Virus record (IMG/VR): IMGVR_UViG_3300044470_000195
Coordinates: 1 to 48,404 of that record
DNA length: 48,404 nucleotides
DNA from: a virus
Strand: one strand, 5' to 3'
Below, one piece after another: positions 5,848 to 46,493 of the stretch. The position numbers and the translations under genes are program-made. Below the pieces are notes generated by a model. It saw only the letters and a list, made by a program, of their open reading frames with translations, made no database searches and had not been told where the DNA came from. Position 1 is the stretch's first letter, and each line of letters begins with the position of its first letter.

Positions 5848-5849
5848 CG

Positions 5850-10307: not shown

Positions 10308-10472
10308 ATGAACTACGCCTCGCACCACTTCGCGACCGCGCGCCTCGGCGGCGATCCAGGCGCGCCGCCCGAGTTCGTCCGCTACTGTTCTGAGTGCGGT
10401 TGCCTTGACCGCGGCGACCCGGCCGAGTTCCCCGAGTTGGAGTATCCGGCCTGCGAGACAATGGTCCCATGA
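10308..10472 (+). CDS. Small protein with CxxC, 54 residues
   Basis: The product is MNYASHHFATARLGGDPGAP, then PEFVRYCSECGCLDRGDPAE and FPELEYPACETMVP. The C-S-E-C pair plus two more Cys suggests a small zinc or redox site. Its stop overlaps the next ATG (ATGA at 10469). An A+T-rich AAGTATATATG leads into the start, without a clear ribosome site. No family is recognised. Confidence 0.5.
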   Translation: MNYASHHFATARLGGDPGAPPEFVRYCSECGCLDRGDPAEFPELEYPACETMVP

Positions 10473-10870: not shown

Positions 10871-11151
10871 GGTTTCTCCGCCGCCTCTACCTTAGCGCCG
10901 CGATCGCGCTGGCCGGCATCTTCGAACGGCCGGCGCCGGCGCTCATCGAGCCGCCCATCGAGCAGGACTACGATTCGCGCCTCGAAGTCACGGTAACAGT
11001 GCAGGCGCGCCACACCGCGCCCGTGCCCGCGGCGCTGCTGGCGCAGTATCACGCGCAGGCCGAGGAGTTCTGGGAAGAGCACTACCGCGGGCTGCCCGAG
11101 GAACTGGCAGCCGTGACGCGGCGCGTGCGCGAGCGGGCGTGCGGCTGGTAG
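10867..11151 (+). CDS. Membrane-anchored hypothetical protein, 94 residues
   Basis: The GTG start at 10867 overlaps the previous TGA. Residues 1-27 (VRFLRRLYLSAAIALAGIFE) look like a positive-inside transmembrane anchor or signal. A Pro-rich segment, a beta strand pair (SRLEVTVTVQARH) and a charged helix (LLAQYHAQAEEFWEEHYRGL) follow. An in-frame start at 10819 is unlikely because of the overlap evidence. The function is unknown. Confidence 0.5.
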   Translation: MRFLRRLYLSAAIALAGIFERPAPALIEPPIEQDYDSRLEVTVTVQARHTAPVPAALLAQYHAQAEEFWEEHYRGLPEELAAVTRRVRERACGW

Positions 11152-11422
11152 AAGTCACGCGGCGCGCGGCCGGTTCTAATTCCGAACGGGGGCGCTCCAA
11201 CTCGATCACGTCCATGGCGCGGATGAAGCCTGCGGACCGCACGGGAAGAATAGTTGGAAGCGGCCACGGGGCGGGCAGCCACTGTATTTGGAAATCATAG
11301 CCGGAAAGCACGACCTGTCGGAATTTCAGATTCTGTGCGCCAACTGCAACACCATCAAGATGTACGAACTCAATGAATTCGGCCGATACAAACAAAAGAA
11401 AAACAAGCATCGGGTGGAGTGA
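11139..11422 (+). pseudogene. HNH endonuclease, apparently frameshifted
   Basis: The frame open from 11180 to 11422 reads FRTGALQLDHVHGADEACGP, HGKNSWKRPRGGQPLYLEII, AGKHDLSEFQILCANCNTIK and on to HRVE. LDHVHG and the C-A-N-C pair are hallmarks of small HNH nucleases. No start codon exists in that frame, because an in-frame TAA lies at 11177. A GTG at 11139 opens VRLVEVTRRAAGSNSERG in another frame. Joining the two needs a -1 shift near the GGGGG run at 11088-11092 plus 100, that is 11188-11192. HNH proteins beside terminases assist packaging in HK97-like phages. Here it may be decayed, or the base count of the run may be wrong. Confidence 0.6.
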
Positions 11423-11468
11423 CCCCAGGACGGAGGCCGGCCAGCTACTCTGGCCGGCTCGATTTCGG
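11373..11468 (+). other. Upstream-frame start of the terminase nuclease half
   Basis: From ATG 11373 this frame reads MNSADTNKRKTSIGWSDPRT then EAGQLLWPARF, which is the conserved linker expected before the nuclease domain. After F (TTT, 11463-11465) the natural continuation GPVELEELKRSLGPYG lies in the +1 frame. Skipping the C at 11466 restores it. TTT-C followed by the Arg codon CGG would allow tRNA-Phe to slip from TTT to TTC. A single-base indel is the plain alternative. Confidence 0.65.
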
Positions 11469-13152
11469 CCCCGTCGAGCTAGAGGAGCTGAAGCGGTCCC
11501 TCGGCCCGTACGGCGCCGCCGGCCAGCTTCAACAGCGGCCGTCGCCATCGACCGGCGGCGTGTTCCAGCGGCATTGGTGGCGCTATTGGCAGCCCGCCGG
11601 CGCGAACCTCGGCCCCGTCCCGGTCAAGCGGCCGGATGGCTCGATTGCCATGGTGGAGGCTATCCCGTTGCCTCCGCTGGATGAGGAATTGCACTCCTGG
11701 GATATGTCCTACCGGGACCTCAAGGAGTCGGATTTCGTCGTCGGGCAGCATTGGGGCAGGGCGGCGGCCCGCAAGTTCCTTCTGCACCAGGTCAAGGGGC
11801 GTTGGGACTTCCCGCGCACCTGCAACGAGTTTAAGAAGTTCAGCGAAGATTGGCCGGTAGGCGCCAAGCTGGTAGAGAATGCCGCCAACGGCCCCGGTAT
11901 CATCTGGGCGCTGGAGGCGACCGTGCCGGGCATCATCGCGGTTCCCCCGATCGGCTCGAAGGAAGCCCGCGCCGCCGCGGTCTCGCCCCAAGCGGAGGCC
12001 GGCAACGTCTTCTTGCCGCATCCGGCGATCGCGCCGTGGGTGGCGGAGTTCATCGATGAAGCATCGACGTTTCCCAAGGGCGCACACGATGACCAGGTGG
12101 ATGCGTTGTCCCAGGCCTTGAACCGGCTGAACCGCGCCGACGTTCTCCGGATGTTCCCCGAGTTCCGCGCGAATCCACGCCAAGGCGAACCGCCCGAAGC
12201 GCTGCACGTGATTGCGCCGGTGCGGCTGGAGGGCTGGTGGCAGCGTTGGATAGGGATCGCTTCCGGCCCGGCCGGCATGTCGATTGTGTGGCTCTGCCAG
12301 GCTCCCTCCGGGCAATTGCATCTGTACCGGGAGTGGTGTGGACCGGGGGCCGGCGAAGAACTGGGCGCGCGCCTGGCGGAGCAATCGCTCCAGGAAATGG
12401 AGAACACGCGGATATTGACCGCGTTTCTCGCGCCGGAATACTTCGACCCTTCGGCGGCGGGGAAGAGCCTGGCGCGTGAAATTGCGCATGGCGTCGAAGC
12501 GGTGACCGGCTCCGAGTCCGCATTCACCTTCGAGCACACCGAAGAAGAACGGCGGATGGACCGGGATCAGGCCTGGCTTTCGCTGGAGACGCGGAGGCGC
12601 AAGGCCGCGAAAGCGAAATTGCTGCTGCGTGCGGCCGATGGCGAGCGCGCCGGCGGCTGGGAATATCTCCACGGGCTGCTACGCTGGTGGCCGTTGTATC
12701 AGACGGAACCGATACCCTTCGACCGCGACACCGCTCTGATGTTGCAGCAGGAAAGCCAGGAGCGATACGACGAGTATCTCCGGCACGTGGCCGGCGACCC
12801 GGCGCAGGAGACGCTACCGGGCCTGGTGATCTGGGACGAATGCCCGCTGGTGGCGCACGCGCTGAGCGCCCTGGTGCGCGACGAGAAGAAAGCCGACGCC
12901 GCGCTACCCCGCCTGCTGCCGGCCGAAGCGCTGCTGACGGCCTTAATGGGGCACCGCGCCAAGGCGGAGATGCGGCCGCCCGTGGAGGCCTACACGGCCC
13001 AGCGCCTGGAAGAGTTGCAAAAGCGCGTGCAGCATCCCAACGCGCAGCAGATCCACATGGCCGCGACTAAGGCCGAGGTGGACTGGAAACAGAAGTTCGG
13101 CCAGCGCAAGGGCTGGAACTTTTCGCGATTGGGATCCAAGCCAAGGAAATAG
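11419..13152 (+). CDS. Terminase large subunit, nuclease half with an extra C-terminal region
   Basis: As an uninterrupted frame from GTG 11419 this encodes 577 residues; the true start is probably ATG 11373 with a +1 shift. Residues 15-50 carry the linker GPVELEELKRSLGPYGAAGQ. The nuclease domain follows, with Asp95 (SWDMSYRD), Glu153 (LVENAANGPG) and Asp224/Asp228 (HDDQVDALSQ) as metal ligands. Normal family members stop near residue 240. Here about 340 residues follow that resemble a second terminase nuclease: IGIASGPAGMSIVWL at 278-292, LHLYREW, and a late LVIWDECPLVAHALSALVRD segment. The aspartate usual in the first motif is replaced (IASG), so that copy is probably inactive. It may be a structural or regulatory part. 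Confidence 0.85.
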   Translation: MTPGRRPASYSGRLDFGPVELEELKRSLGPYGAAGQLQQRPSPSTGGVFQRHWWRYWQPAGANLGPVPVKRPDGSIAMVEAIPLPPLDEELHSWDMSYRDLKESDFVVGQHWGRAAARKFLLHQVKGRWDFPRTCNEFKKFSEDWPVGAKLVENAANGPGIIWALEATVPGIIAVPPIGSKEARAAAVSPQAEAGNVFLPHPAIAPWVAEFIDEASTFPKGAHDDQVDALSQALNRLNRADVLRMFPEFRANPRQGEPPEALHVIAPVRLEGWWQRWIGIASGPAGMSIVWLCQAPSGQLHLYREWCGPGAGEELGARLAEQSLQEMENTRILTAFLAPEYFDPSAAGKSLAREIAHGVEAVTGSESAFTFEHTEEERRMDRDQAWLSLETRRRKAAKAKLLLRAADGERAGGWEYLHGLLRWWPLYQTEPIPFDRDTALMLQQESQERYDEYLRHVAGDPAQETLPGLVIWDECPLVAHALSALVRDEKKADAALPRLLPAEALLTALMGHRAKAEMRPPVEAYTAQRLEELQKRVQHPNAQQIHMAATKAEVDWKQKFGQRKGWNFSRLGSKPRK

Positions 13153-13161
13153 GAGTCTACA

Positions 13162-13509
13162 ATGCCCGCTGTCATCATCATGCCGCCGCCCACCCCGCCC
13201 GGCAAAAAGAGCGCCCGCAAGCCCGCGGGGATGCCGCCGCCCACCTTCGGAAGCGGCGCCCATGACGCCGGCATGGACCCCGGCCAGGATGCGGGAGGCT
13301 CCAGCCTGAGCCCCGAGGAAGTAGGCTATTCGGCGGACGATCTCTGCTCCGACTGCGCCCACGCTGAGGGCGGCAACTGCGGGAAGTACCAATTCCCGAT
13401 CAGCCCGAACGGCCATTGCCGAGCAGGGTTCGAACCCCAGGGCGGAGAGGGCGACAGCGACGGCGGCGACGCCGCGGCAGAAAGCAACCCGTGGGACGCT
13501 CCGCAATGA
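13162..13509 (+). CDS. Four-Cys hypothetical protein, 115 residues
   Basis: An AGGAGT ribosome site precedes ATG 13162. The N-terminal half is Pro/Gly-rich and likely disordered. Residues about 60-92 hold LCSDCAHAEGGNCGKYQFPI and NGHCRAGFEP, a C-x2-C-x7-C-x12-C arrangement that could bind zinc or an iron-sulphur cluster. The C-terminus is Gly/Asp-rich. It is encoded between terminase and portal, and its stop overlaps the next ATG. Spacing resembles high-potential iron-sulphur motifs only loosely. Confidence 0.6.
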   Translation: MPAVIIMPPPTPPGKKSARKPAGMPPPTFGSGAHDAGMDPGQDAGGSSLSPEEVGYSADDLCSDCAHAEGGNCGKYQFPISPNGHCRAGFEPQGGEGDSDGGDAAAESNPWDAPQ

Positions 13510-14093
13510 CGCTCGTGCTGTTCCTGTTAGCCGTCCTGCTGGCGCTGAGCCTGGCGGGATCCGCGGTGCTATGGCATTGCCTCCGGCGCGAGGCGCAGAC
13601 CTGGCAGGAGTCCGCGGCGCAACAGCGCGCCCAACGCCACCAGCTCGCCGAGGAGATCGCCGGCCTCGAAGCGGCCGAGGCCAGCATCGAGAAAGCCGTG
13701 GAAGAGGCCCGCCGGGCGCGCGACGAATGGAAAGCCGAGGCGGAGCGGCTGCTCGATCGCATCAGGTCCCTCGATAGCGACCTGGCTCTATGGAAGGCCA
13801 AGGCGGAGCACTGGCAGGAGCAGTACGAGCGAGCCAACGCCGACGCCATCAAGGCCCGCGAGACGGTGGCGGATTGGATAGCGCAGAGGACCTTTGGGAA
13901 AAGCATCTTCAGCCACGCGCCGGCACTGCCGGAGAGGGCCAATGTCCCTAAGCCTGTCGCCAAGCAGCGCGTGCAGGGGCGGGTGGCGGTGCAGATGGCC
14001 GAGCGGCAATTCAACGAAGCCTACGCCGATCTGATGCGTGGGAAGAGCGACCCGCCAGCGGCAGCCGCCCCGCCTGAGCGCGCCGGAGGCTGA
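13506..14093 (+). CDS. Membrane-anchored coiled-coil protein, 195 residues
   Basis: ATG 13506 overlaps the previous stop. Residues 1-26 (MTLVLFLLAVLLALSLAGSA) are a transmembrane anchor. Residues about 30-125 form a long Ala/Glu/Arg coiled coil (LAEEIAGLEAAEASIEKAVE, WKAEAERLLDRIRSLDSDLA). The C-terminal part is polar, with a predicted helix (VAVQMAERQFNEAYADLMRG). The architecture recalls inner-membrane spanins or envelope-spanning proteins, but its location before the portal gene also fits a packaging or head accessory. The longer frame from 13416 is a shadow of the preceding gene. Confidence 0.6.
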   Translation: MTLVLFLLAVLLALSLAGSAVLWHCLRREAQTWQESAAQQRAQRHQLAEEIAGLEAAEASIEKAVEEARRARDEWKAEAERLLDRIRSLDSDLALWKAKAEHWQEQYERANADAIKARETVADWIAQRTFGKSIFSHAPALPERANVPKPVAKQRVQGRVAVQMAERQFNEAYADLMRGKSDPPAAAAPPERAGG

Positions 14094-14096
14094 TCG

Positions 14097-14327
14097 GTGG
14101 CGAGGGCGGCGGCGTGCATCTGCGGCAAGTGCACTCGATGCAGGCAGCGCGCCTGCTAACGGAAGCGCCGCGCGCTGGTGAAGCAGACCCTGTATGGCCC
14201 GCGCCGCGACCACTGGCCCGAGCCGGCCACGCCGCAATCGTCGCTGCGCCGCTTTGCCGAGCAGGACTTCTTTTTCGGAACCGAACCCCGATGCGGCCGG
14301 GTGATGCCGCATCAGCCACAGAGCTAA
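14097..14327 (+). pseudogene. Cys-cluster small protein interrupted by an in-frame TAA
   Basis: From GTG 14097 the frame reads VARAAACICGKCTRCRQRAC, then TAA (14157-14159), then RKRRALVKQTLYGPRRDHWP and on to PQSSLRRFAEQDFFFGTEPR, stopping at 14325-14327. The C-x-C-x2-C-x2-C cluster followed by a basic stretch is a design I know from small phage proteins, where an aromatic residue usually sits at the position of this TAA. The sequence on both sides stays natural. It is therefore a recent nonsense change, a readthrough site, or a sequencing error. Confidence 0.5.
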
Positions 14328-14363
14328 CCGCGACGGATTTCAGATTTTGCCACCAAGGTTACC

Positions 14364-16874
14364 GTGATTCCCATTTCTCCCGCTCCCCAGCCACCCTCCA
14401 AACCGCAACTCCTCGAAATCTTCAAGGAAGCTGCTAAGAAGATCGTGACGGAGGACGTGTCGCAGGACGTCGAGCCGGAAAAGCTCTGGCAGTACCGCAT
14501 GGCCGCCAAGAACGATCTCTATTGGCGCGCCCTGCAATACGTCTCGCCCAGCCTGTTCGAAGGCGGCTTGGCCGCGTTTAGTTCCGTGGGAACCCCGCTG
14601 GCGTCGAACGAAGCGGACTACGGCGGGACGACCGGCCTTTACGATTACGTCCAGAACATCTACCGCGGCTACGGGCGCAAGTTCATCGGCGCGATCGGGC
14701 TGCGCGCGCCCAACGTCAAAGCCGTGCCGGACGATCCGGAGGACGAAGAGAGCCAGCGGCATGCCCGCATGGCCGACATCGCGGCTCAGATCCTGCGCGC
14801 CAAGTGGGACGTGGATTCGCGGAACCTCGAACTCGCGATGCACTTGTGGAAGTCGGGCACGACTTTCGCGTACACGCCCTGGGTAGCGGACTCCACCAAG
14901 TACGGTAAGACTGCGCAGCCGCGCCTCGAATCCCGCCAGGTGGGCATGGGAGAGGCGGCCTACCAGTGCCCCCAATGCGGAGCCACGGCGCCGGCGCCGG
15001 AAGGCGACCCCGACAACACCCAATCGCCGCCGGTTTGCCAGCAGTGCCAGCGCCAGCTTGCCCCCGAGGATTTCAAAGAGCCGGATGCAGTGGACGTTCC
15101 GGAGATGGTCGGCGCCTCCGAATACGCCAACGGTGCGGTGGAGTTCCATCTCTGCAACATCTTCACGGTCACCGTGCCGTTCTTCGCGCACGACCTGGCG
15201 GATGCGCCCTGGCTGCAATACGAATACGACGAGTACAAGGGCCGGCTGTTACGGGATTATCCGAACCTGCGCGCGCAGGGCAGCCTGGAGAACAGCGGCG
15301 AAGACCAGGCCAGCTCGGGCGTGGGCGCCCTGGTGCGCGATACGGCGGCTTCCCCCATGGGCGTTCCGACGCCGCGGCGCACCTCGCGCTGGCGCTACAC
15401 GCGGATCTGGCTCAAGCCCGAAATGTATGAGGCGGTTACGGATTCGCAGACCAGCGACCAAATCGTCTCCTATGTGCCTGACGGTAAATTGCGCACCGGC
15501 CTGCAACAATTCTTCCCGGATGGTTTGAAAATCACCATGGTCCAGGGCCAGGTGATCGACCTCGAAAACGAGCGCCTGGAGGACGTGTGGGCCGCCTGCA
15601 AGCCCGAGACCTCGGAGTATATCTTCGCGGATCCGGTGGGGCAGGACATGGTGCAGATCCAGGACTTGAAGAACGACATGCTGAACATCGCGGCCGAGAC
15701 CCTGGAGCGCGGCCTGCCCATCACGTTCGTGCATCCGGACGCGGTGGATACCGAGCAGTGGACGCAAACTCAGGCACTCCCGGCCGAGATCGTGCCGGCG
15801 GTCCCCGCGATCGGCGACACCCTGGGCGCCAATTTCTTCCAGACGCAAGCCGCGCAGTTCTCCAATCAGATGATGCCATGGCTCGAATCCGTGGTCGAAG
15901 AGGCCCGCGAGGTGGTGGGCACGGTTCCCTCCGTCTACGGCGGCGATGAAGGCGACCAGACCGCCCGCGAAGCCGAAATCAAAAAGAACGCCGCGCTCCA
16001 GCAGCTCGGCGTGCCGTGGCTGTTCATGCGCAAGTTCCACGCGCAGGTGCAGACCAACGGCGTAAAGCAACTCGCGCGCTACGGCGCCGGCATGCTGCGC
16101 TCGGTGAAGCAAGGCGCCGAAGGCTACGAGAGCCTCATGTTGAACGTGGCTGAACTGAAAGAGGACGGATGGCACTTCGAAGCTGAAGAGGCCATCCCCA
16201 TGACCTGGGGGCAAATGCGCGACCTGCTCATGTTTATGATGGAGAAGCCGCCCCAGATCCTCCAGGCATTCGGCTACACCCACCCGATGAACGTCGCCAA
16301 GAATCAAAGCCTGCTGGGCATGACGGGCTATTACACGCCTGGCCTGGCGGATCGAGACAAGGCGCTCGACACCATCGGCCAACTGGTTAAAGCCAAGGTG
16401 ATCCAGAAGCCCATGCCGGACGGCTCGATCGACTTCCAGCCCACCATCCCCGCGGATGGCTTCGAGGACGATCACCAACTCTGCGTGGACGTGTGCAAGG
16501 CCTGGTGCCAGTCGGCCTCCGGCCGGCGCGCGCGAGAGATGAATCCGGACGGTTATGCCAACGTGCGGGCGTGGGGAACGGCGCACATGAAGCTGCTGAA
16601 TCCGCCGCCACCGCCGCCGCCGCCTCCGCCAGCGCCGCGGCTCAACATCAACGCCAAGCTCACGGATATGATTCCGCAGCAGCAGCAGACCATTCTCAGC
16701 GACTTCAACCTGGCGGCGGCGCCCGTTCCGCCTCCGCCCGCGGCGCAAGCAGGGCCCGTACCTGCGCCAGCCGCGCCGCCACCGGGCGGACCTTTTAAGG
16801 CCGCCGGGCCGGCCGCCCCGGCGCTGCCGCTCCCAGGGGGCGGCGCGCAGCCGTTGCCGAGTCCGTTGCAGTAA
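14364..16874 (+). CDS. Portal protein, zinc-ribbon-containing
   Basis: This 836-residue protein forms the dodecameric DNA channel at one head vertex. The body has portal-like features: an N-terminal helical wing, LWKSGTTFAYTPWVADSTKY, an IADEFHLCNIF-like segment at VEFHLCNIFTVTVPFFAHDL, and a long helical stem region (NFFQTQAAQFSNQMMPWLES). Around residues 200-235 two Cys pairs (YQCPQCGATAP and PPVCQQCQRQL) form an inserted zinc ribbon, uncommon in portals. The C-terminus is Pro/Ala-rich with a run of ten Pro and a Gln-rich patch. GTG 14364 is preceded by AAGG. The size and neighbours (scaffold and capsid downstream) match P22-like rather than HK97-like portals. Confidence 0.8.
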   Translation: MIPISPAPQPPSKPQLLEIFKEAAKKIVTEDVSQDVEPEKLWQYRMAAKNDLYWRALQYVSPSLFEGGLAAFSSVGTPLASNEADYGGTTGLYDYVQNIYRGYGRKFIGAIGLRAPNVKAVPDDPEDEESQRHARMADIAAQILRAKWDVDSRNLELAMHLWKSGTTFAYTPWVADSTKYGKTAQPRLESRQVGMGEAAYQCPQCGATAPAPEGDPDNTQSPPVCQQCQRQLAPEDFKEPDAVDVPEMVGASEYANGAVEFHLCNIFTVTVPFFAHDLADAPWLQYEYDEYKGRLLRDYPNLRAQGSLENSGEDQASSGVGALVRDTAASPMGVPTPRRTSRWRYTRIWLKPEMYEAVTDSQTSDQIVSYVPDGKLRTGLQQFFPDGLKITMVQGQVIDLENERLEDVWAACKPETSEYIFADPVGQDMVQIQDLKNDMLNIAAETLERGLPITFVHPDAVDTEQWTQTQALPAEIVPAVPAIGDTLGANFFQTQAAQFSNQMMPWLESVVEEAREVVGTVPSVYGGDEGDQTAREAEIKKNAALQQLGVPWLFMRKFHAQVQTNGVKQLARYGAGMLRSVKQGAEGYESLMLNVAELKEDGWHFEAEEAIPMTWGQMRDLLMFMMEKPPQILQAFGYTHPMNVAKNQSLLGMTGYYTPGLADRDKALDTIGQLVKAKVIQKPMPDGSIDFQPTIPADGFEDDHQLCVDVCKAWCQSASGRRAREMNPDGYANVRAWGTAHMKLLNPPPPPPPPPPAPRLNINAKLTDMIPQQQQTILSDFNLAAAPVPPPPAAQAGPVPAPAAPPPGGPFKAAGPAAPALPLPGGGAQPLPSPLQ

Positions 16875-33462: not shown

Positions 33463-34617
33463 ATGCGCTTCCACGTTGTGGGCCTTCCGCACACCGAGGT
33501 CAGTAAGGAATACTGCGCCTGCGCCTACAGCGAAAAATGCCGCAAGTTCGGCCTGATGATGAAATCGCTAGGGCACCACGTCATTCTCTATGCGGCCGAA
33601 GGCTCGGACCAATCCTGCTGCGATGAGTTGGTGCCCGTTATTTCAACGGCCGAGCAGGAGCGCTTTTTCGGCGGCTACGACTGGCACAAGAGCACTTTCC
33701 GGCTGAAGTGGGACCCTGCCGAGCCGTACTGGCAGATCGCGAACATGCGCGCGGCGGCTGAAATCAAGGCCCGCGAGCAGCGCGGGGATTTCGTCTGCCT
33801 GGTCGGCGGCGCGTGCCAGAAGCCCATCGCCGACCTGGTGGGCGAGGCAAATTCGATTATCGTCGAGCCGTTCGTGGGCTATTACGGCATCTTCGCGCGG
33901 CACCGCGTTTTCGAGAGCTACACGCACCAGGCGTGCGTTTACGGCACGCGATCGAAGGATCCGGACGGCCCCCTGTACGATGCCGTGATCCCCAACTATT
34001 TCGACCCCGCGGATTTCCCGTTCTGCGCGGAGAAAGGCGATTACCTCCTGTTCCTGGCGCGCGTCATCCAGCGCAAGGGCATCGCCATGGCCATCGAGAC
34101 GGCCAAAGCCGCGGGCCTGAAGCTCATCGTCGCCGGCCAGGGCGGAACGGTTGACCGCGATGCGCTCGTCACCGAGGAGGGGCAGCGGCTGCCAATCGGC
34201 GACGTGGAGTACGTCGGCTATGCCGATGCAGCCAGGCGCGCCGAGCTGATGGGCCACGCGCGCGCGTTGATCCAGCCCACTCTGTTTTTGGAGCCGTTCG
34301 GCGGTAATGTCGTCGAGGCGCAAATGTGCGGCACGCCCGTTATCACCACCGATCACGCCGTGTTCAGTGAAACCGTGAAGCCGGGGCTCACTGGCTATCG
34401 CTGCCACACCCTTGGCCAATTTGTTAAGGCGGCGAAGGAATGCCAGAGCCTGGACCCTGCGACCATCAGGGAAATCGCCATAGCCAACTACTCCATGGAC
34501 CGCGTGAAGCTCATGTATCAGACATATTTCGAAATGTTGGCCGGCCTATGGGGCGAAGGTTGGCCGGCACTCGGGAGCGATGCGGTGTCCGACTTGGAGT
34601 GGCTAAGAAAGCGTTGA
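33463..34617 (+). CDS. Family-4-like glycosyltransferase
   Basis: This 384-residue enzyme starts right after the previous stop. It shows a Rossmann C-terminal half (GDYLLFLARVIQRKGIAMAI, ETAKAAGLKLIVAGQGGTVD) and the retaining-glycosyltransferase motif EPFGGNVVEAQMCGTPVI with Glu277 and Glu285. The N-terminal half contains SLGHHVILYAAEGSDQSCCD and WHKSTFRLKWDPAEPYWQI. It transfers a sugar from a nucleotide sugar, but the acceptor is unknown. It may glycosylate a virion protein, modify host surface polysaccharide, or modify DNA. Its position among virion genes favours the first two. Confidence 0.75.
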   Translation: MRFHVVGLPHTEVSKEYCACAYSEKCRKFGLMMKSLGHHVILYAAEGSDQSCCDELVPVISTAEQERFFGGYDWHKSTFRLKWDPAEPYWQIANMRAAAEIKAREQRGDFVCLVGGACQKPIADLVGEANSIIVEPFVGYYGIFARHRVFESYTHQACVYGTRSKDPDGPLYDAVIPNYFDPADFPFCAEKGDYLLFLARVIQRKGIAMAIETAKAAGLKLIVAGQGGTVDRDALVTEEGQRLPIGDVEYVGYADAARRAELMGHARALIQPTLFLEPFGGNVVEAQMCGTPVITTDHAVFSETVKPGLTGYRCHTLGQFVKAAKECQSLDPATIREIAIANYSMDRVKLMYQTYFEMLAGLWGEGWPALGSDAVSDLEWLRKR

Positions 34618-34699
34618 CGTACTAGCCGATTCAGAGTGTTTTTGAACCTTGTGGATGCTGCCGTTCACGCGCATTCTTTGCATAGGCCGGAAACGCCCA

Positions 34700-35611
34700 A
34701 TGAGTCAGCCTGCCAGCTTCTCCAAAAACGGCTCCGCCCGGTTCTATGTGTACGTTTACTGGAACCCCCTAAAAGATGGGACCCCGCCTTTCTATGTTGG
34801 GAAGGGCCAGGGTTTCCGCGCCAGGAGCCACTTATGCCCATCGGGAGGCGACGGCAAAAACAAGTATAAAGAGGCACTCGTAAAGGAAATACGGCGGGCC
34901 GGGATGGAACCCCTCATCACATATGAGTGGTGCGGAAACGACGAACAAGAGGCGCTCCTTTGGGAGCGATTTCTAATTGAGCTGTTCGGCAAGCGCCGCA
35001 ACGGCGGCCTCCTCGCAAATCTTACGGACGGTGGCGAGGGAACCAGCGGATTTAAGCTCGCACCGGAACTTGTTAAGAGGCTTGCTGATGCCCGGCGCGG
35101 TAAACCCAAACGCTTCCCCGTGTCCGAAGAAACATGCCGGCGGTTATCCGCTTCGCTAAAGGGGCACGCCGTTTCCAGCGATACCAGAAAGAAAATATCC
35201 GAGAGGCAGACCGGTACCCAAAGGGCCAGGGGCCATGTTGTTTCTCAGGAGTGCAGGGATAGAATTGCGGAAAAGCTCAAGGGGCGCCCAGGAATCAAAG
35301 GGGTTGTCCGTTCGGAGGAGTGGCGCCTCAGATTATCCAAATCCCACGAAGGTAAAAAGCACTCTCCGGAGTCGATCGCAAAAATGAAAGGCAATCAGAA
35401 CGCTCTCGGCTACCGACACTCGGATGAAGTCAAGGCTGAAATCTCAGCAAGGCAAAAAGGCCGCACTCTTTCCGAAGGTCACAAGGCGAAGATTCGAGCA
35501 TCCTCCGGCGGGTGGCATCACACGGAGGAGTCTCGCCGCAAAATGTCCGAGGCGAGACGCCGCCGTGCTCAGTCCGAATCTGCGGGCACCATAATCCCCG
35601 CAACCGAATAG
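34700..35611 (+). CDS. GIY-YIG homing endonuclease with NUMOD3-type repeats
   Basis: This 303-residue selfish endonuclease has an N-terminal GIY-YIG-like block (RFYVYVYWNPLKDGTPPFYV then GKGQGFRARSH) and a catalytic-type Glu in LLWERFLIELFGKR. Its C-terminal two thirds consist of repeated DNA-binding NUMOD3-like units (SEETCRRLSASLKGH, SDTRKKISERQTG, SEEWRLRLSKSHEG, SPESIAKMKGNQNA, SEGHKAKIRASSGG, TEESRRKMSEARRR). It lies alone between the glycosyltransferase and ejection genes, is more A+T-rich than its surroundings, and is not inside a recognisable intron. ATG 34700 was chosen over 34649. Confidence 0.8.
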   Translation: MSQPASFSKNGSARFYVYVYWNPLKDGTPPFYVGKGQGFRARSHLCPSGGDGKNKYKEALVKEIRRAGMEPLITYEWCGNDEQEALLWERFLIELFGKRRNGGLLANLTDGGEGTSGFKLAPELVKRLADARRGKPKRFPVSEETCRRLSASLKGHAVSSDTRKKISERQTGTQRARGHVVSQECRDRIAEKLKGRPGIKGVVRSEEWRLRLSKSHEGKKHSPESIAKMKGNQNALGYRHSDEVKAEISARQKGRTLSEGHKAKIRASSGGWHHTEESRRKMSEARRRRAQSESAGTIIPATE

Positions 35612-35652: not shown

Positions 35653-37932
35653 ATGGCCAGCCTCAAAGACATCTCTCTGCAAAACCGCAACACCGCGCTG
35701 ACGGAGAACCAGCAGCTCATCGACCAAGGCTCTACGCTCCAGGACCAGGCGGGTGCGACCTCGGACATTTACAGCAACCAGGCCCAGGGCTATCAGAGCC
35801 AGGCGGACGCCGCCGCGGCGCAGCTCCAGCAGACGCCCGGCTACACGGCCCAGGAAGCCGCGCAGATCGCGCCCGACTATTCGCAGTACGCGACCGGCTC
35901 CGGAGACCTGCAAAACCGGCAATTGACCAGCGCCGAGCAAGGCCAGATCATGGGCGATCCCAACGCGGCCATGCAGTATTACGACCCGTCCCAGACCACC
36001 GCGGACGTGCAGGGTTCGACCCAGAACCAGCAGCAGGCCACCGATGTGTTGCAGCAGCAGATGAACGCCGCCGCCGGCAATGAGCAGTTGGGGCTGAACA
36101 ACGCGACCAACGCGGGAGCGGAGAACGCCAACAACGCGCTCGGCACCGAGGGTCAATCGATGATTACGGCCTATGGCAATGAGGCCGCGGGGCTGAATGC
36201 CTCGGTAGATCCCTCGCAACTGGGCCTCTCGGCGAACTACGCGGCCAACGAGGAAATGACGCCCCAGCAGCAACAGGACATGGTTACCGCGGCGGGCGTA
36301 ACGGCGGGCAACCAGTACCGCTCGCAGCAGTCCGACATCGCGCGCCAGGCGGCGGCGCAGGGCAACACCAGCCCCATGGCGATCGCGGCCATGAACGAGC
36401 AGCTCAACCGCGACTCGGCCGCCTCCGCCGGCGATGCCATGACCCAGGCGCGCATCGATGCCTCCAACGCCGCCGCCAGCCGCCTGCAAACCGAGGAGGC
36501 TACGCGGCTCGGCAGCGCGCAGGACATTGCCGGCATGGAGCAGCAGAACGCCACCACGCTCGGCAACACCCAGATGCAGGCCATCGATACGTACGGCGCC
36601 CAGAACCTCTCGAACGCGCAAGCCCAGGAGCAGGCGCAGGCGAACGCCGCCGCCACCGGCGGCCAGGCGACCGCCAACGCCGCGGCCACCGGCGGCCAGG
36701 CCGCCATCAACACCGCCAACACCACCGGCCAGGAGACCTTAGCGGCCGAGCAGCAGAACCAGGCCACCGGCCAAGGTCTCGCCACGGCCGCCGACACGGC
36801 CGCCTCGAATCGCGCCGACACCCTGGCCACCAATCGCCAAGCCTCGACGGCGGACATTCAGAACACGCAGTACAACCAGGGGATGGCCACCGGCCAGGCC
36901 ACGGCGACGGGAGCGCAGACGGTAGCCAACCAGCGCATCGCCGGCAATACCGCGTATCGCGGCTACCTCACCGGGCAGCAAGCCGAAGACCAGAGCAGCG
37001 CGCTCACTGCCTCGGGGCAGAAAATCTCGGCGTACGGTGACACCACCTCGGCGGCCACCGGCACGCTGGGCGCGGCCAACGCCGCGACCAGCGGCGCGAC
37101 CACCGCCAACGCACAGCCCAGCACGGCCCAGCAGGTCGTCGGCGCGGCTACCGGCGCCGCAGCCGCATTCCTGGACGACGGCGACCTCGACACGTCCGCC
37201 GGAGATATGCCGACGCCTCCCGACCTGCCGGCCCAGATCGGCACACCAGCTCCGCCGCAGACCGCCGCGCCCGCAGACCCCTCGTTGAGCACCTGGCAGA
37301 AGATTCAACGCTACAGGCAACAGCGGCAGCTTCAACAGCAGCAGAACCCGAAGAGCATCGGCAGTAATGGGCAGCCGCAGTCACAGCAGCAGCAGAACCC
37401 GAATAGCTGGTCCCAGATCGGCTCCAACATTGGCCAGATCGCCGGCGCCGTCACGGGCCTGGCGGACGGCGGCGCGCCCGGCGTGAAGCCCGCCATCGTG
37501 GGCGAGCGGGGCCCCGAGTGGATCACCAACCTCGGCAAGGAGGGGCATAGCAAAGGCACGCTCGTTACCAAGCCCACCCACGCCCTGATGGAAAAGAACG
37601 ATCTGGTGGTGCCGCTGAACCGCACCAAGAACACCAAGGTCCCGCCCAGCACACTGCGCATGGTGCCGGCGCGCTACCGCCCGGCCGGCGGAAACGGCGC
37701 CAACGCCGAACCCATGTGCGATGGAGGAGTCCGCGCCGAGCCCATGGCCGCCGGCGGCATCGTAACCAAGGGCGCGCAGCCGCCGGCGCCGATGCCCACG
37801 GCCGCCAGGATGCCGGGATCGGCGGCCGGCGCCCTGGTGCGTTCGCGCTACCGCAGACCCACCGGGCCGGCAGGCCCGCACAATCCGCTCCACATCAACG
37901 AACCGCTGCATCCGATGCCGGCGTACAGGTAG
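35653..37932 (+). CDS. Putative virion ejection / internal protein 1
   Basis: A CAGGAGTCC ribosome site precedes ATG 35653. This 759-residue protein is Gln, Ala, Asn and Thr-rich (NAAATGGQATANAAATGGQA and QQQQNPKSIGSNGQPQ) with a C-terminal ADGGAPGVKPAIVGERGPEW, TNLGKEGHSKGTLVTKPTHA and NDLVVPLNRTKN. That end resembles tape-measure or injection proteins (VGERGPE motif). The composition fits an ejected, membrane-interacting virion protein. It is followed by two more large proteins of the same style. Confidence 0.6.
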   Translation: MASLKDISLQNRNTALTENQQLIDQGSTLQDQAGATSDIYSNQAQGYQSQADAAAAQLQQTPGYTAQEAAQIAPDYSQYATGSGDLQNRQLTSAEQGQIMGDPNAAMQYYDPSQTTADVQGSTQNQQQATDVLQQQMNAAAGNEQLGLNNATNAGAENANNALGTEGQSMITAYGNEAAGLNASVDPSQLGLSANYAANEEMTPQQQQDMVTAAGVTAGNQYRSQQSDIARQAAAQGNTSPMAIAAMNEQLNRDSAASAGDAMTQARIDASNAAASRLQTEEATRLGSAQDIAGMEQQNATTLGNTQMQAIDTYGAQNLSNAQAQEQAQANAAATGGQATANAAATGGQAAINTANTTGQETLAAEQQNQATGQGLATAADTAASNRADTLATNRQASTADIQNTQYNQGMATGQATATGAQTVANQRIAGNTAYRGYLTGQQAEDQSSALTASGQKISAYGDTTSAATGTLGAANAATSGATTANAQPSTAQQVVGAATGAAAAFLDDGDLDTSAGDMPTPPDLPAQIGTPAPPQTAAPADPSLSTWQKIQRYRQQRQLQQQQNPKSIGSNGQPQSQQQQNPNSWSQIGSNIGQIAGAVTGLADGGAPGVKPAIVGERGPEWITNLGKEGHSKGTLVTKPTHALMEKNDLVVPLNRTKNTKVPPSTLRMVPARYRPAGGNGANAEPMCDGGVRAEPMAAGGIVTKGAQPPAPMPTAARMPGSAAGALVRSRYRRPTGPAGPHNPLHINEPLHPMPAYR

Positions 37933-39746: not shown

Positions 39747-42700
39747 ATGGCCCCCTCTCCGCCTCCCGACCAACTTCGGAAGCCCAGCACGATGGGCACG
39801 TTCAGTCTGTCCGACTTCGACCCGGATCCGCCGCAGCCGGCGCAGATGGGGAAGTTTCGGCTCGACGAACTGGAGGACGCGCCACCGCCGCCCGCGGGCC
39901 TCCCTGGACCGCCCAAGCCGCCCCTGCCGCAAGGACTGCCGGCGCCTGCCGATTTCCCCGCGGTCCCGCAGCAACCGCCCGGCATGATGAACGTGCAGGC
40001 CGCCTCCCCGATGGCGGCCGACTCAACTCCGCCGCCGCCCGCCCCGCCGCATCTCAAAGGTCCGTCTGCCCCGGCCGCGCCGGCTCCGCCCTTGTGGCAG
40101 GGTCCCCTCGAAAGCAGCTACGCGCCGCCCACTACGTCTAAAGCCTCGGGCGTTATCCCCATCGCACCCCTGCCGCCCCCGGTTCCATCCGGCCAACCGC
40201 AGCCGACATCCCCGCAAATTCTCACCGACGAACCGCCCGCGCCCGCGGCACCCCCGATCATGCTCGACACCGGCCAGGCGCGCAACATCCCCACGCCGCA
40301 ACCGGGCGCACAGCCCTACGACCCCAACAGTCTCAGCCAGGCTGCCACGGACCTGCGCGACTTGCTCTTAGGGCCGGCGTACGGCGCCCCGCTGAAGGCC
40401 GACTCGAAGGTGGAGCAGGCCTTGAACGGGATGTTGCGCGCTACCGCCAACCTGAACACCCCCACGGCGATTGCCACGTGGTTGACCGGCATCGGCGTAG
40501 CGCAAGCTCTGCCCTGGCTGGCGAGGCTGCCCGCGGCCAGGTCGTTCCTCTCGCAATATCCGGCGCTGGCCAAAGGCGTCGATATCGCCACGCGCGGCGC
40601 CGTTCCCGCGGCGTTCGGCGCAAAGGGCGTTATCAGCGGCGTTCCCCAGGTCGTCCAGGGGGTTCGAAGCGGAAACCTCGAACAGGCCGCGGAAGGCGCA
40701 ACCAACCTCGCCCTGGGCGGAGCCGGCCTCTACGGCGCCACGCGGATCGGCACCGAGACGGCCGGCCTCTATCCTGGCGAGCCGGAGCCGCCGGCGACCA
40801 TTCCCGCGCGGCGCGGGGCGTTTCCGGATGTCATGGAGCAGGCCAGGCCGGAGGGCGTAACGCCTCCGCCGGAACGGCCCAACGTGGCGGGTCTCACCCA
40901 GGAAGCGGCGCAGTCCGAGCAGACGGCGGAAGCCCTGACGGGCGCCGGCCGCGAGTTGGCCGCCGAAGTCTGGCTGCGACGCGCCGAAGCAGCCAGGGAC
41001 AAGCTGCCCAGCGAACCGCTCAACATCAACGGCCGCCAGTTCACCCAAAAGCAGACCGGCGTTGATCGGGGCGGACGCCCCATTTACGATCTGCTGGACG
41101 ACGCCGGCAACGTGATTACCGCCGGCCGCGCGGGCGACGTGGCCAACTTCGTGCGCTCGCGCCTCGCGCCGACACCCGACACCGCACCCCCCGAGGACGT
41201 GCTGAATGCCGGCGCACTGGAATCGGCGATCGAGGAGCAGGCGCAGCGCTACCAGAACATCCGCACCCAGCAGGATCACCTCGCGTCCGGCCAGGACGTG
41301 CAGATGAGCGCCGACACGATGCGCCTCTCGACGCCCGAGCAGCGCATTGCCATGCTGCGCGAGAACATCGCCGCGCACCAGGCGGATTATGAGATCGGCT
41401 GGAAAGCCATCGAGGGCGATCTCGGCGCGGAGGCCGCGGGCGCGCTGCGCGCGAAAGTGGAAGCGGCCGGGAACGCCGCGCCGCCGCCGGCACCTGCTGC
41501 CGCCCCGGTTGGCGCCCCTCCGGCGCCGGAGGTATCTCAACCTATATCGAGCCAGGTCGAGCCGACTCAACCCGCGCCTTCCGCCGCGCTCGACACCGTA
41601 CCCGAGACGCCCGCCACCATCGCCACCCAGGTCGAGCAACTCCAGGGCGGACTGCGGCGGGTCGTTATGCTTCCCAAGGGAACCCCGCTGGTGAAGCGGC
41701 CCAAGGGGATGCAGTCCTACCAGGACGAGGGCGGCAACACCTACTTTTACAACCCGACGCTGACGAACTTCCAGCAGATCGACCAGGCGGTACAGCAGAA
41801 CCGTCTGCCCGAATTGTTGGGAGCGACCCAGGGCGGGATGGGCGCGCCCGATAAAAGCCAGATTGCCGGGCCGCCCGAGGCCGTGGTAGCCAAGGACGCC
41901 CAGGGGGAGACCGTACAGGCCGCCCTCACCGATCCGGGCAACCTGGGGCCAGCTATCGCGCAAGCGCAGAAGGTCACGCCACCTGGCGGAGCGGTGGACG
42001 TCGAGCCGCCGGAAGCGGAGATCGCGCACCGGCTGGAAGGCGAGCCGCCGGCGCCGGGCGCCCCCGAGAAACACGAGTACTCCTCGACACAGGTCGACCT
42101 GCCAACGCCGCTCGCTCAGGGCATTATTACCGCGGGCGCCAGTATCCCCGACGAACAACTCGCTGACGACGGCCGCGAAACCGTCCCGCACATCACGGTC
42201 AAGTTCGGGATTCATGGCGAGGACCCAGCAGAGGTGCAAAAACTCCTCGCCGAGGAGCCGCCCGTCACTGCGACCTTGGGAAAGACGTCCATCTTCCACA
42301 CCGACGAGGCCGACGTGCTCAAGGTCGATGTGGACTCGCCGGACCTGCACCGGCTGAATGCCAAGATTGCGGACGCGCTACCCCACACCGACACGCATCC
42401 CGACTATAAGCCACACGTCACCATCGCTTACCTCCAGAAAGGACAGGGCGAACAATACGACGGGCAGGACATACCGGGAGTCACCGGGCAAACCGTTACC
42501 CTTCCCGCCGTTACGTTCTCGTCCAAAAACGGAGAAAAGACCAATATTCCGCTCAGTGGCTCACCGGGTGAGCCACTTCAGCAGGGCACGTACCGCGCCG
42601 ACGAGCTGAGCGACGCGCCGCCGCCGCAAGGTGTAGCGCAAAAGCCACAGATAGCCCGTGATAATGCTGAACCGCCCGCGCCCGAATCCGGTCCACACGG

Positions 42701-45700
42701 TCCGATCTTTCGTCAGTTTCACCACGATGCTTCGAGCGCAATAGCCAAACTCACCGAGCTGCAAACCGGAGAAGCGGTGGGCGCCCTCCACCATCCGGCG
42801 GTAGGTGATATCGATCTGGTATGGGGTAAACCAGGGCATCCATGGCACGAGGATGACGACGGCTACGGCTTGTCCCACATCATCGCGAAACACGGCGACG
42901 AATTCCCGGCAGGAACGCTCCAGAACCTCCTCGACGACATGCGCCCGTTAGCGGGACAGCAGCAACGCGACCGGATGGAGTTGGAGAGTCAGAAATACCA
43001 TGCCACCGTGCGGCTCTCTTGGGATCATCGTGCGAAGAAATGGTTACTGACGGCTTTTGAACGTACAGTGCCGCCTTCCGCCAAGGGGAGGTCATTCGTC
43101 CCTGGCGCCCAGGAACAGAGCGGCGAAACGAGTCCTTCGCCGGAAGGCGGCCCAGCTACCGAAGGAACTACCGACGGCTCCGGCAATCCCGTTACCGGGA
43201 CCAGTAGGCCGACTTCCCCACTGGCTGGTAGATCCACTTCCACTATCCCCTCATCCAAAGCCGCAGTCAATCCTCCCCCCAGCGCCGCCGCCGCGGCCGG
43301 CCTTACGCCCGAGCAAATAGCCGCCCAGGTGCGCGCCGCACTGGCCGCCAGCCGCGGCCCGGCGCCGGCGGAGCGCGCCGATGTCGGGCCCATCGCGGAC
43401 TACACGCGCGGGCGCGGCACGCTGCCCAAGCCCGACGCTGGATGGTGGCACGGCAGCGTGGACGGCGAGCCGTTCTACACCAACCAATCGCTCGCGTTGT
43501 TAGGCGAGGCTCCCGCCGCCAAGGGACCGCAGGCCTCCAGCGCCTTCGCCCAGAACTTGAAAGGCACGGGCAAAGAGGCGCCCATCGAGCCGCGGGCGTA
43601 CTCGGCCGCGTCGGACGATTACGACTATCAGCAGGGCAGCGGCAGGGCGCCCATGATCTGGTTCAGCGACGGCACCCCCGTTAACGCCAGGTTCTACGAC
43701 CACGTTCTGAAGCGCTACCCTGACGCCACCTTTGCGCGTGAACCGAACGTGCCCGAAGATTCCGGCAAGCCGGTATACGTGCGATCCGGCAACAAGGCTG
43801 TAGGCTTGATCGCGCCCATGCGGCGCACCGCCGGACACGTCTTCGACAAGGTAAAGGAATTCCTGGGGGAGGAAACCGGCACCTCGCGCGTGGGCCAGGT
43901 CGTCGAGCGCACGGCATTCGCCTTCTACAACCAGGACGTGCTGCCCAAGCTCCAGGGCAGCCAGGCGGGCGCCAAAAAGATGATCACCGGCCTGGTCGAG
44001 ACGGTTTTCCCGCGCTTCGGCGTGGATCCCAAGACGCTCGATACCGTCTACGCGCTCAAGGGCGACCGCGATAAAGCCGAATTCATCCTCCGCGCCACCG
44101 TCGAGCACATGAGCGAGGTTCTGGGCCCCGAGGCCGATAACGCCGTGGTCAACCAGGTGGCCCACGGCCGGCCGGACCTGATCGCCGCGGGGCTGACTCC
44201 CTTGCAGGCCTTCCAGGTCGATGTCATGGACCGGATCAAGACCGGCGCCGCCCAGGAAACCGCCGAGCTGCAGAACATCGCCGATTTCCTGCGCCAGGCG
44301 GACGACGTGCTCTACAAGGCCCAGTCCAGGTACAAGGACATCCACCAGCTCGCCAATCACCAGCGCGTCATGTGGAAGGTGATTCCCGGCAGCCAGGGTG
44401 CGCGCGGCAAGAGCGGCCAGGCCAGGCGCCCGCTCGAAGGCACCAAGGGCCAGTTTAAGCGCCATGTATTCGAGAATATGTCGGACGGGATCAAGCTGGG
44501 CGGCGTACCGTACACTTATAATCCCGTCGATAACTTCGTCCGCCACTACGTGGACGTCATGAAGTTCCTCACCGCGCAGCGCTGGTGGGCCGCGGCCAAG
44601 AAGATGAAGGCGCGGGTGTTCGTGCCGTTCGGAAAGCGCGCGCCCGAGGGCTTCGACAAGCTCGACGATCGCATCGCCCGCAGCTTCCTGCACGTGGAAG
44701 AGGGCATGGTGGACAAGGGCGAATGGTATGTCGAGCACGGCATGGCCAAGCTCATGAACGCTTACGTGAGCCGCGACCTGCTGCGCGATCCGAACACCGG
44801 CTTGGGCCAGTTGGGCAACGTGCTTATGGCCGTCAAAAACGGCTACACCGCCGTAGAGTTGGGCATCTCGGGCTTCCATTGGGTTTTCGAGACGCTGGAA
44901 ACCGGCGGATCGAGCATCGGCCTGGGCCTCTCGAAGATCCTCAACCGCGGCGCCGTCAAAGAAGGCCTAGCCGACATCGGCAAGGGCCTAGCGATCGCGC
45001 CGGCCGCCCGCGAGGCCTGGAAGACCGGCGATGCCGGCGTGAAGCTGCTGAAGAACCCCGCGGCGTACGCCCACACGCCCGAGGGCGCCGAGCTGCTGAA
45101 GGCCTACCCCGACGCCAAGCAGTTGATGGACGACCTGTTCGCCGGCGGCGGCCGGGTGGATATCTACAACGACTACAAGCAACACACCATCCAGGCCTTC
45201 CGCGAAGCCTACAACCAGGGGAGCTATCTCGGCGCCGGGTTGCGCTCCCTGGGGGCGGGCATGGAGGCGCTCATGGTGCCCCTGTTCGAGTGGTACATTC
45301 CCAAGATCAAGGTGGGCGTGTTTCTGCGCGAGTACTCCGAGCAGCTCTTGCAGCATAGCGACGACCTGGCGGCGGGCAAAACCACGCGCGGCGAGCTGGC
45401 CCGCAAGGCCTGGGATTTCGTCGAGGATCGCTTCGGCGAGATGAATTTTGACAACCTGTTCTGGCATCGCACGTTCAAGACCGCCATGCAGATCGTCATG
45501 CGCAGCGTGACGTGGAAGTTCGGCAGCGTGCGCGCCGGCGCCTACGCCGTTGGCGGCACGGGCAAGGAACTTCACCAGGCCGTGCGCGACAAGCGCCGGC
45601 CGAAGCTGACCCCGCAAGCCGCCTGGGCGCTCGGCATGGCATTGCTCACGGCCGCGGTGGGAACCCTGGCTACATACCTGTTCACCGGCGACCGGCCGCG

Positions 45701-46493
45701 CGAGCTGAAGGACCTCTTCTACCCGCGCACCGACAAAAACGACCCGCGCCAGCGCGTCTCCCCGCCGACGTACGCCCGCGAGTACTCGGCGATCGCCAAG
45801 CACCCCATAGTGTGGGCGTTCGGCGGTGTGAGCGGCGTTCTGAGCAAGTCGCTCGAAGTTTACAACAACAAGAACTATTACAACCAGCGCATCTGGGAAG
45901 ACGACGACCCCGCGGCCAAGGTGGCGCTCAAAATCTTCAACCACTATGCGCCCTGGAACGCCAACATTGGACTGCAATCCTTCGAGCGCGTCCGCCAGGA
46001 GGGCGGAGGCCTGAAGCAGGCCGTGCCCAGCTTCCTGGGCTTCCCCAAAGCGCCGCGCTACGTGACTGAGACCCCTGCCGAGGAGCTGCTGAGCCAGTAC
46101 CGGCAGGAGGCGCAGCCCTCGGGCGGACGCTCCGCCAACGCGCGCAACCAGGTCACCAGCCGCTTTACCGCGCTGCTACGCGCCGGCCAGGAAGCCGAAG
46201 CGAAACGGCTCTACGGCCAGGCGCTGGCCGCCGGCACGGCCACGCCCGACGACATGAAGCACGCCGCGGCGCGCGCGGTCTACGGGCCGCTGGTGGCCGA
46301 TTTTAATCAGCTTTTTGTGGGCGTCGAGTCTGGCCAGGCGCTCGACCACGGCATCCGCGTCATGGCCAAGGCCAGCCCCGCGGAGCAGCAAGTCATCGGC
46401 CCGATATTAGGGCATCACCTCAAGACCGCGTTTCCGAAACTCCCGCCCGTGGAACAACAGCACGTCCTCGACCGCCTGAAACTCCTGCAATAG
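39747..46493 (+). CDS. Giant polyvalent virion protein with 2H phosphoesterase and BECR-type modules
   Basis: This 2,248-residue protein is by far the largest gene. Residues 1-190 are Pro-rich. A G-x-F/Y-x-x-D-E/F-L-x-D-A/P-P-P motif occurs near 17, 35 and 948. Residues about 765-925 hold two H-x-T motifs, PHITVKFG (His815, Thr817) and PHVTIAYL (His890, Thr892), the signature of 2H phosphoesterases. Residues about 975-1100 (EAVGALHHPAVGDIDLVWGK, GYGLSHIIAKHGDEF with His1044 and His1049, KWLLTAFERT) resemble BECR-fold nucleases of phage polyvalent proteins. The C-terminal half is a long helical body like large polyvalent-protein-associated regions, with one transmembrane stretch near 1960-1982. 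It is probably injected with the DNA. ATG 39747 is weakly supported; ATG 39792 is an alternative. Confidence 0.7.
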   Translation: MAPSPPPDQLRKPSTMGTFSLSDFDPDPPQPAQMGKFRLDELEDAPPPPAGLPGPPKPPLPQGLPAPADFPAVPQQPPGMMNVQAASPMAADSTPPPPAPPHLKGPSAPAAPAPPLWQGPLESSYAPPTTSKASGVIPIAPLPPPVPSGQPQPTSPQILTDEPPAPAAPPIMLDTGQARNIPTPQPGAQPYDPNSLSQAATDLRDLLLGPAYGAPLKADSKVEQALNGMLRATANLNTPTAIATWLTGIGVAQALPWLARLPAARSFLSQYPALAKGVDIATRGAVPAAFGAKGVISGVPQVVQGVRSGNLEQAAEGATNLALGGAGLYGATRIGTETAGLYPGEPEPPATIPARRGAFPDVMEQARPEGVTPPPERPNVAGLTQEAAQSEQTAEALTGAGRELAAEVWLRRAEAARDKLPSEPLNINGRQFTQKQTGVDRGGRPIYDLLDDAGNVITAGRAGDVANFVRSRLAPTPDTAPPEDVLNAGALESAIEEQAQRYQNIRTQQDHLASGQDVQMSADTMRLSTPEQRIAMLRENIAAHQADYEIGWKAIEGDLGAEAAGALRAKVEAAGNAAPPPAPAAAPVGAPPAPEVSQPISSQVEPTQPAPSAALDTVPETPATIATQVEQLQGGLRRVVMLPKGTPLVKRPKGMQSYQDEGGNTYFYNPTLTNFQQIDQAVQQNRLPELLGATQGGMGAPDKSQIAGPPEAVVAKDAQGETVQAALTDPGNLGPAIAQAQKVTPPGGAVDVEPPEAEIAHRLEGEPPAPGAPEKHEYSSTQVDLPTPLAQGIITAGASIPDEQLADDGRETVPHITVKFGIHGEDPAEVQKLLAEEPPVTATLGKTSIFHTDEADVLKVDVDSPDLHRLNAKIADALPHTDTHPDYKPHVTIAYLQKGQGEQYDGQDIPGVTGQTVTLPAVTFSSKNGEKTNIPLSGSPGEPLQQGTYRADELSDAPPPQGVAQKPQIARDNAEPPAPESGPHGPIFRQFHHDASSAIAKLTELQTGEAVGALHHPAVGDIDLVWGKPGHPWHEDDDGYGLSHIIAKHGDEFPAGTLQNLLDDMRPLAGQQQRDRMELESQKYHATVRLSWDHRAKKWLLTAFERTVPPSAKGRSFVPGAQEQSGETSPSPEGGPATEGTTDGSGNPVTGTSRPTSPLAGRSTSTIPSSKAAVNPPPSAAAAAGLTPEQIAAQVRAALAASRGPAPAERADVGPIADYTRGRGTLPKPDAGWWHGSVDGEPFYTNQSLALLGEAPAAKGPQASSAFAQNLKGTGKEAPIEPRAYSAASDDYDYQQGSGRAPMIWFSDGTPVNARFYDHVLKRYPDATFAREPNVPEDSGKPVYVRSGNKAVGLIAPMRRTAGHVFDKVKEFLGEETGTSRVGQVVERTAFAFYNQDVLPKLQGSQAGAKKMITGLVETVFPRFGVDPKTLDTVYALKGDRDKAEFILRATVEHMSEVLGPEADNAVVNQVAHGRPDLIAAGLTPLQAFQVDVMDRIKTGAAQETAELQNIADFLRQADDVLYKAQSRYKDIHQLANHQRVMWKVIPGSQGARGKSGQARRPLEGTKGQFKRHVFENMSDGIKLGGVPYTYNPVDNFVRHYVDVMKFLTAQRWWAAAKKMKARVFVPFGKRAPEGFDKLDDRIARSFLHVEEGMVDKGEWYVEHGMAKLMNAYVSRDLLRDPNTGLGQLGNVLMAVKNGYTAVELGISGFHWVFETLETGGSSIGLGLSKILNRGAVKEGLADIGKGLAIAPAAREAWKTGDAGVKLLKNPAAYAHTPEGAELLKAYPDAKQLMDDLFAGGGRVDIYNDYKQHTIQAFREAYNQGSYLGAGLRSLGAGMEALMVPLFEWYIPKIKVGVFLREYSEQLLQHSDDLAAGKTTRGELARKAWDFVEDRFGEMNFDNLFWHRTFKTAMQIVMRSVTWKFGSVRAGAYAVGGTGKELHQAVRDKRRPKLTPQAAWALGMALLTAAVGTLATYLFTGDRPRELKDLFYPRTDKNDPRQRVSPPTYAREYSAIAKHPIVWAFGGVSGVLSKSLEVYNNKNYYNQRIWEDDDPAAKVALKIFNHYAPWNANIGLQSFERVRQEGGGLKQAVPSFLGFPKAPRYVTETPAEELLSQYRQEAQPSGGRSANARNQVTSRFTALLRAGQEAEAKRLYGQALAAGTATPDDMKHAAARAVYGPLVADFNQLFVGVESGQALDHGIRVMAKASPAEQQVIGPILGHHLKTAFPKLPPVEQQHVLDRLKLLQ

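Follow-up and report, generated by a model that had tools for sequence, protein, structure and literature searches.

The protein encoded at positions 39747-46493 of the window, which is the whole IMG/VR virus record IMGVR_UViG_3300044470_000195 at its full length of 48,404 nucleotides, joins a 2H phosphoesterase module and a PBECR1 module to a conserved C-terminal module in one chain of 2,248 residues. The C-terminal module recurs in many phages behind different enzymatic domains and resembles an ejection-protein chassis with exchangeable cargo. Based on the gene context, the polyvalent type of the payloads and the T7 gp16-like layout of relatives, we infer that this is a polyvalent ejection protein, which is likely packaged in the virion and ejected into the host with the DNA.

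Genomic context of the giant gene

39747..46493, plus strand: giant protein, 2,248 residues, intact open reading frame (ORF) with an ATG start
14364..16874, plus strand: portal protein (context), PHROG portal match at E 1.1e-4
35653..37932, plus strand: upstream protein of 759 residues, candidate companion ejection protein, 57% identical to the protein at 428-3040 of locus L002
37944..39725, plus strand: upstream protein of about 593 residues (start uncertain), a second candidate companion in ejection, with 35% identity to the protein encoded immediately upstream of the L002 giant
41598..42035, plus strand: unnamed block, residues 618-763 of the giant protein, 65% identical in the L002 relative

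An earlier note on this DNA, made from the sequence alone, had described a 2,248-residue protein with two HxT motifs. The ORF was found intact, and the motifs HIT (residues 815-817) and HVT (residues 890-892) are 75 residues apart as the note had placed them; likewise, the GYGLSHIIAKHGDEF block begins at residue 1039 and WLLTAFERT at residue 1099. The ORF is a real coding sequence, with several of its separate parts kept in independent phage contigs. The surrounding late-gene region contains a split large terminase, the portal and a tail-fibre gene, all of them upstream of the giant gene. While the position of the gene at the end of the virion gene cluster, as the note had it, is plausible, the record stops 1.9 kb further on. 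Both genes directly upstream are conserved in L002 too, the giant protein of which is the closest relative found (identity of 61% over the C-terminal module and 57% over the 2H domain).

Several other features of the record were observed. The large terminase is divided between two ORFs, 9351-10124 and 11419-13152, with about 1.3 kb containing an HNH-like stretch between them, and a single ORF of L038 covers both parts; no Rfam intron was found in the region 9351-13152. The ORF at 34649-35611, which follows a glycosyltransferase gene (33463-34617) and precedes the candidate ejection genes, carries NUMOD3 motifs and a weak GIY-YIG match and likely encodes a homing endonuclease. The ORF at 1448-2332 on the minus strand gave a weak match, below the cut-off, to the histone H1-like HC2, which may reflect composition only. 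PADLOC yielded no match. The C-terminal module was present in five MAG contigs labelled with four different phyla, two of the contigs being Acidobacteriota; considering that these labels conflict and that binned phage contigs are unreliable, we assigned no host to the window phage.

Predicted fold and catalytic residues of the 2H module

42066..42566, plus strand: 2H phosphoesterase module, residues 774-940, from Pfam, AlphaFold and Foldseek
42189..42197, plus strand: first catalytic motif HIT (residues 815-817), its H and T unchanged in all 70 homologues
42414..42422, plus strand: second catalytic motif HVT (residues 890-892), its H and T likewise unchanged in all 70

The giant protein almost certainly contains a 2H fold. 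An HxT pair alone is weak evidence, because roughly 8% of shuffled versions of the giant protein with the same composition contain one at a spacing of 60-90 residues; the profile and structure evidence outweighs this rate, and we rejected chance as the origin of the pair. Pfam 2_5_RNA_ligase2 matched residues 811-898 above its curated cut-off (E 8.1e-12), and NCBIfam 2_5_ligase matched the protein weakly. When 70 phage sequences were aligned, the HxT/HxT tetrad was retained in 70 of 70, and the invariant residues were H815, T817, H890, T892, G821, F850, P889 and Y895. The module was modeled by AlphaFold with a pLDDT of 96.5 and a pTM of 0.89, with the two HxT motifs in a bilobal fold as in the 2H superfamily. 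In a Foldseek comparison of the model with the PDB, bacterial CPDase 5h7e ranked first (E 1.8e-7), followed by BCSR5 phage Acb1, LigT, Usb1, poxvirus cGAMP PDE and T4-type Acb1. The 2H call of the earlier note, which had named LigT and Acb1 for the structural comparison, is thus confirmed by profile, predicted structure, Foldseek and invariant catalytic residues.

The family is not confined to giant proteins. Among 69 distinct 2H-bearing ORFs, some of which are cut by contig ends, 29 are of at least 1,000 residues and 23 are shorter than 250 residues. Solo 2H genes directly follow a portal homologous to that of the window in L027/L030 and L050, and adjoin the terminase in L038. The contig IMGVR_UViG_3300010885_040738 carries both a solo 2H gene (L030) and a giant with the C-terminal module (L140), at least 30 kb apart; thus the enzyme is a stand-alone late gene in one phage and is fused to the chassis in the window phage. 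In L002 (ORF 6966-14570) and L024 (ORF 2755-12504), a His_Phos_1 domain immediately precedes the 2H domain and looks circularly permuted: its catalytic RHGETEWN-like strand (at about residue 717 in L002; RHADTAWDN in L024) comes after, not before, the rest of the domain.

The PBECR1 module

42687..43079, plus strand: PBECR1 module, residues 981-1111, Pfam E 1.6e-8, AlphaFold pLDDT 84.8
42891..42893, plus strand: His1049, predicted catalytic residue of the BECR domain, kept in 13 of 15 homologues
43050..43052, plus strand: Thr1102, predicted BECR catalytic Thr, invariant in 15 of 15 homologues

A BECR fold is very probable for the second module. Pfam PBECR1 (PF18809) matched residues 1015-1107 with 35.4 bits, above the gathering score of 27.6. 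In the AlphaFold model, the predicted catalytic His is on a helix (model residues 70-81) and the Thr on the C-terminal strand (124-135); a His with a Thr/Ser is the kind of active-site pair given for most PBECR families (Iyer et al. 2017, PMC5512222). In the Foldseek comparison, the top nine matches were CdiA-CT NC101 or RelE-family toxins, with E of about 0.3 and none significant. As such, the BECR assignment of the earlier note holds through the Pfam profile and the conserved His and Thr; in the structural check that it had proposed, BECR-type toxins do rank first, but not significantly. In the PBECR1 domains of L110 and L107, KGR replaces KHP, so the catalytic His is gone although the C-terminal Thr persists, which points to inactive copies.

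A stretch of Bbp10 from Bordetella phage BPP-1 is 48% identical to the PBECR1 module over 127 residues. Bbp10 has about 2,050 residues and is encoded in a structural-gene cassette. Its neighbours there are an SLT protein on one side and a tail-fibre gene on the other, and the second gene upstream is annotated as an internal virion protein. By analogy, this setting favors delivery of the window protein with the virion. Unlike the window protein, Bbp10 lacks homology to the C-terminal module. Mass spectrometry of BPP-1 virions, in the literature searched, covers only the two major capsid bands.

Comparison of the 2H module with Acb1 and RNA-end enzymes

The profile of the 2H family, searched against PDB sequences, matched Acb1 9q2g best (E 1.5e-8), which makes Acb1 the nearest solved sequence relative of the module. 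T4 Acb1 and three Acb1-type proteins from other phages scored 18-40 bits against this profile and E. coli ThpR just 3 bits. By these scores, the family is nearer to Acb1 than to E. coli ThpR, and an ordinary housekeeping LigT/ThpR was rejected. Fold comparison of the model by itself cannot separate Acb1 from the LigT/ThpR and CPDase RNA 2',3'-cyclic phosphodiesterases, all of which share the 2H fold.

Acb1 (T4 57B; PMC9117128), an anti-CBASS nuclease that cleaves 3'3'-cGAMP and cyclic trinucleotides, is a solo enzyme of 150 residues, whereas the 2H module of the window is a domain inside a giant protein. Using the Acb1 residues reported in PMC9117128, the base-stacking positions Y12, W74 and F107 correspond to Y778, F850 and H884 in the window, giving aromatics at the first two and a His at the third; ThpR is likewise aromatic at two of the three, so this comparison is suggestive only. 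The equivalents of E141 and the lid residue W147 are Q915 and A921, at positions that vary in other large-phage Acb1-type proteins too. Against Pfam Acb1 (PF23474), the giant protein scored 22.6 bits, below the gathering score of 27, and the 2H relative L029 scored 29.6. Since the protein falls below the Pfam cut-off and differs at the E141 and W147 equivalents, we call the module an Acb1-like 2H enzyme, not an Acb1. The enzyme of PMC12287305 is an unrelated metallophosphoesterase.

The 2H module would most likely act as Acb1 does, hydrolysing defence signals made from nucleotides before the host's immunity is triggered; for action on cyclic or oligonucleotide signals as such, we see slightly less than an even chance. 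The two modules could instead act in sequence on RNA, where PBECR1 leaves 2',3'-cyclic phosphate ends and the 2H module opens them to 2'-phosphates, blocking RtcB-type re-ligation. BECR RNases need no metal and leave cyclic ends of the kind that 2H enzymes process (PMC5512222), the closest fold match is an RNA 2',3'-cyclic phosphodiesterase, and the weak 2_5_ligase match fits as well. Furthermore, 2H and PBECR1 share one chain in both the window protein and L026. However, these are the only two distinct proteins with both domains, out of about 70 with 2H and 15 with PBECR1, and the second does not have the PBECR1 His; the closest relative, L002, has 2H and no PBECR1, and the sequence scores favor Acb1 over ThpR. 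An obligate pair was rejected on the same counts, and sequential action on RNA is a rather unlikely role.

A conserved C-terminal module behind exchangeable payloads

43914..46490, plus strand: C-terminal module (residues 1390-2248), conserved at 127 or more IMG/VR loci and proposed as a chassis for ejection and delivery
45627..45683, plus strand: hydrophobic segment conserved in 13 aligned modules, residues 1961-1979

The C-terminal module, which the earlier note had missed, is encoded at no fewer than 127 IMG/VR phage loci, which supply about 80 distinct sequences for an alignment. In all 99 ORFs scored for its position, which include redundant copies, it ends at most 108 residues from the C-terminus (median 6), and the extensions N-terminal of it range from nearly none to more than 2,600 residues. 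When 13 modules were aligned, their hydrophobicity maxima coincided in position. Residues 1390-2248 had no match in Pfam, PHROGs, NCBIfam, the PDB or INPHARED phages; the module profile had no match in the PDB at E 1, hence none to solved ejection proteins. The module matched neither BPP-1 Bbp10 nor BcepMigl gp16. A partial, weak match was found with the C-end of the PBECR1 protein L109 (E 2.6e-7). The payloads carried with the module were as follows.

SLT: L006, L169, L195
ddrB-ParB: L012, L164, L175
RadC/JAB: L010, L121, L157
InPase: L120, L161, L200
Helicase: L121
His-phosphatase and 2H: L002
2H: L141
PBECR1: L184
2H and PBECR1: window protein

As far as the libraries and literature searched extend, this chassis module, with its payload exchange, is undescribed. 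The payload types are typical of polyvalent proteins (PMC5512222), which supports the delivery reading. Both PBECR and 2H were listed among the domains of polyvalent proteins by Iyer et al. 2017 (PMC5512222), who suggested RNase activity and degradation of nucleotide signals as their roles and argued for injection. Since both domains are found in injected polyvalent proteins there, the window protein belongs to an already known kind; a demonstration of injected signal-degrading 2H enzymes was not found in the literature searched. Like phage polyvalent proteins, it is large and multidomain, is encoded in the late-gene region near virion genes (terminase, portal and tail fibre upstream) and holds at least two functionally unrelated enzymatic domains, 2H and PBECR1, in one chain. 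Its relatives carry the hallmark polyvalent domains InPase, ddrB-ParB, RadC, ART and LPD22. Unlike in those proteins, its C-terminal module is absent from the searched libraries, and 2H together with PBECR1 is uncommon.

The T7 gp16-type ejection proteins (PMC8954989) offer a second comparison. In L006, L169 and L195, the SLT domain lies within the first 190 residues in every case, where T7 gp16 has it too, and a long C-terminal part with the hydrophobic segment comes after it. Two candidate companion genes upstream are a further likeness. In contrast to gp16, the window protein has a variable enzymatic payload and no sequence match to any solved ejection protein, and the resemblance is one of layout only.

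This layout can also be read against a role in the cytoplasm. The SLT domain of T7 gp16, at its N-terminus, stays in the periplasm (PMC8954989), and under the same topology the N-terminal payload might miss the cytoplasm unless it is cleaved or passes fully. The giant protein would then be a structural ejection protein forming a DNA conduit, with a payload that is periplasmic and acts there on phage or host nucleotides, or is a binding domain only, and the cytoplasmic defence would not be disarmed. The N-terminal SLT of the relatives agrees with such a conduit, as do the loss of the PBECR1 His in L107 and L110 and the inactive PBECR domains known in Mu MuF (PMC5512222). However, none of the 70 homologues departs from the 2H catalytic residues, and the other payloads of the chassis (InPase, ddrB-ParB, helicase and RadC) have cytoplasmic substrates; we consider this conduit role unlikely. 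Action of the 2H module on NAD- or ADP-ribose-derived nucleotides, for example ADP-ribose 1'',2''-cyclic phosphate, rather than on cyclic oligonucleotides or RNA ends, is improbable: the sequence and fold matches do include plant Appr>p cyclic phosphodiesterase (1fsi, 1jh6), an ART-PolyVal domain shares one polypeptide with a 2H of the window's family in L029, and the His-phosphatase stands just ahead of 2H in L002 and L024, but the likeness is mostly at the fold level and Acb1 is nearer by sequence.

Proposed function and significance

We thus favor a virion-delivered protein in which both modules are enzymatically active, whatever the substrate, and we hold this to be somewhat probable. In such a polyvalent ejection protein, the module of residues 1390-2248 would be the shared chassis for packaging, ejection and membrane passage, in a role like that of the C-terminal part of T7 gp16. 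The N-terminal part would be the exchangeable payload, here a 2H domain whose catalytic tetrad is intact, together with a predicted PBECR1 RNase that would make metal-independent cuts in host RNA. The differences from Acb1 at E141 and W147, the score below the Pfam Acb1 cut-off and the PBECR1 Foldseek result weigh against this reading, as would a topology copied from gp16. In its fullest form, the C-terminal module would define a large undescribed ejection-protein family delivering exchangeable enzymes, and the window phage would preload its virion with an Acb1-like enzyme that disarms cyclic-nucleotide immunity before phage expression; we put this forward tentatively.

The window locus provides a concrete, confidently folded 2H module for testing the injection proposal of 2017. 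The C-terminal module occurs on more than 100 phage contigs and is absent from the searched libraries, and its payload exchange could show how enzymes are loaded into virions by phages. T4 Acb1 is a separate small enzyme, whereas one injected with the DNA would be at hand as soon as infection begins.
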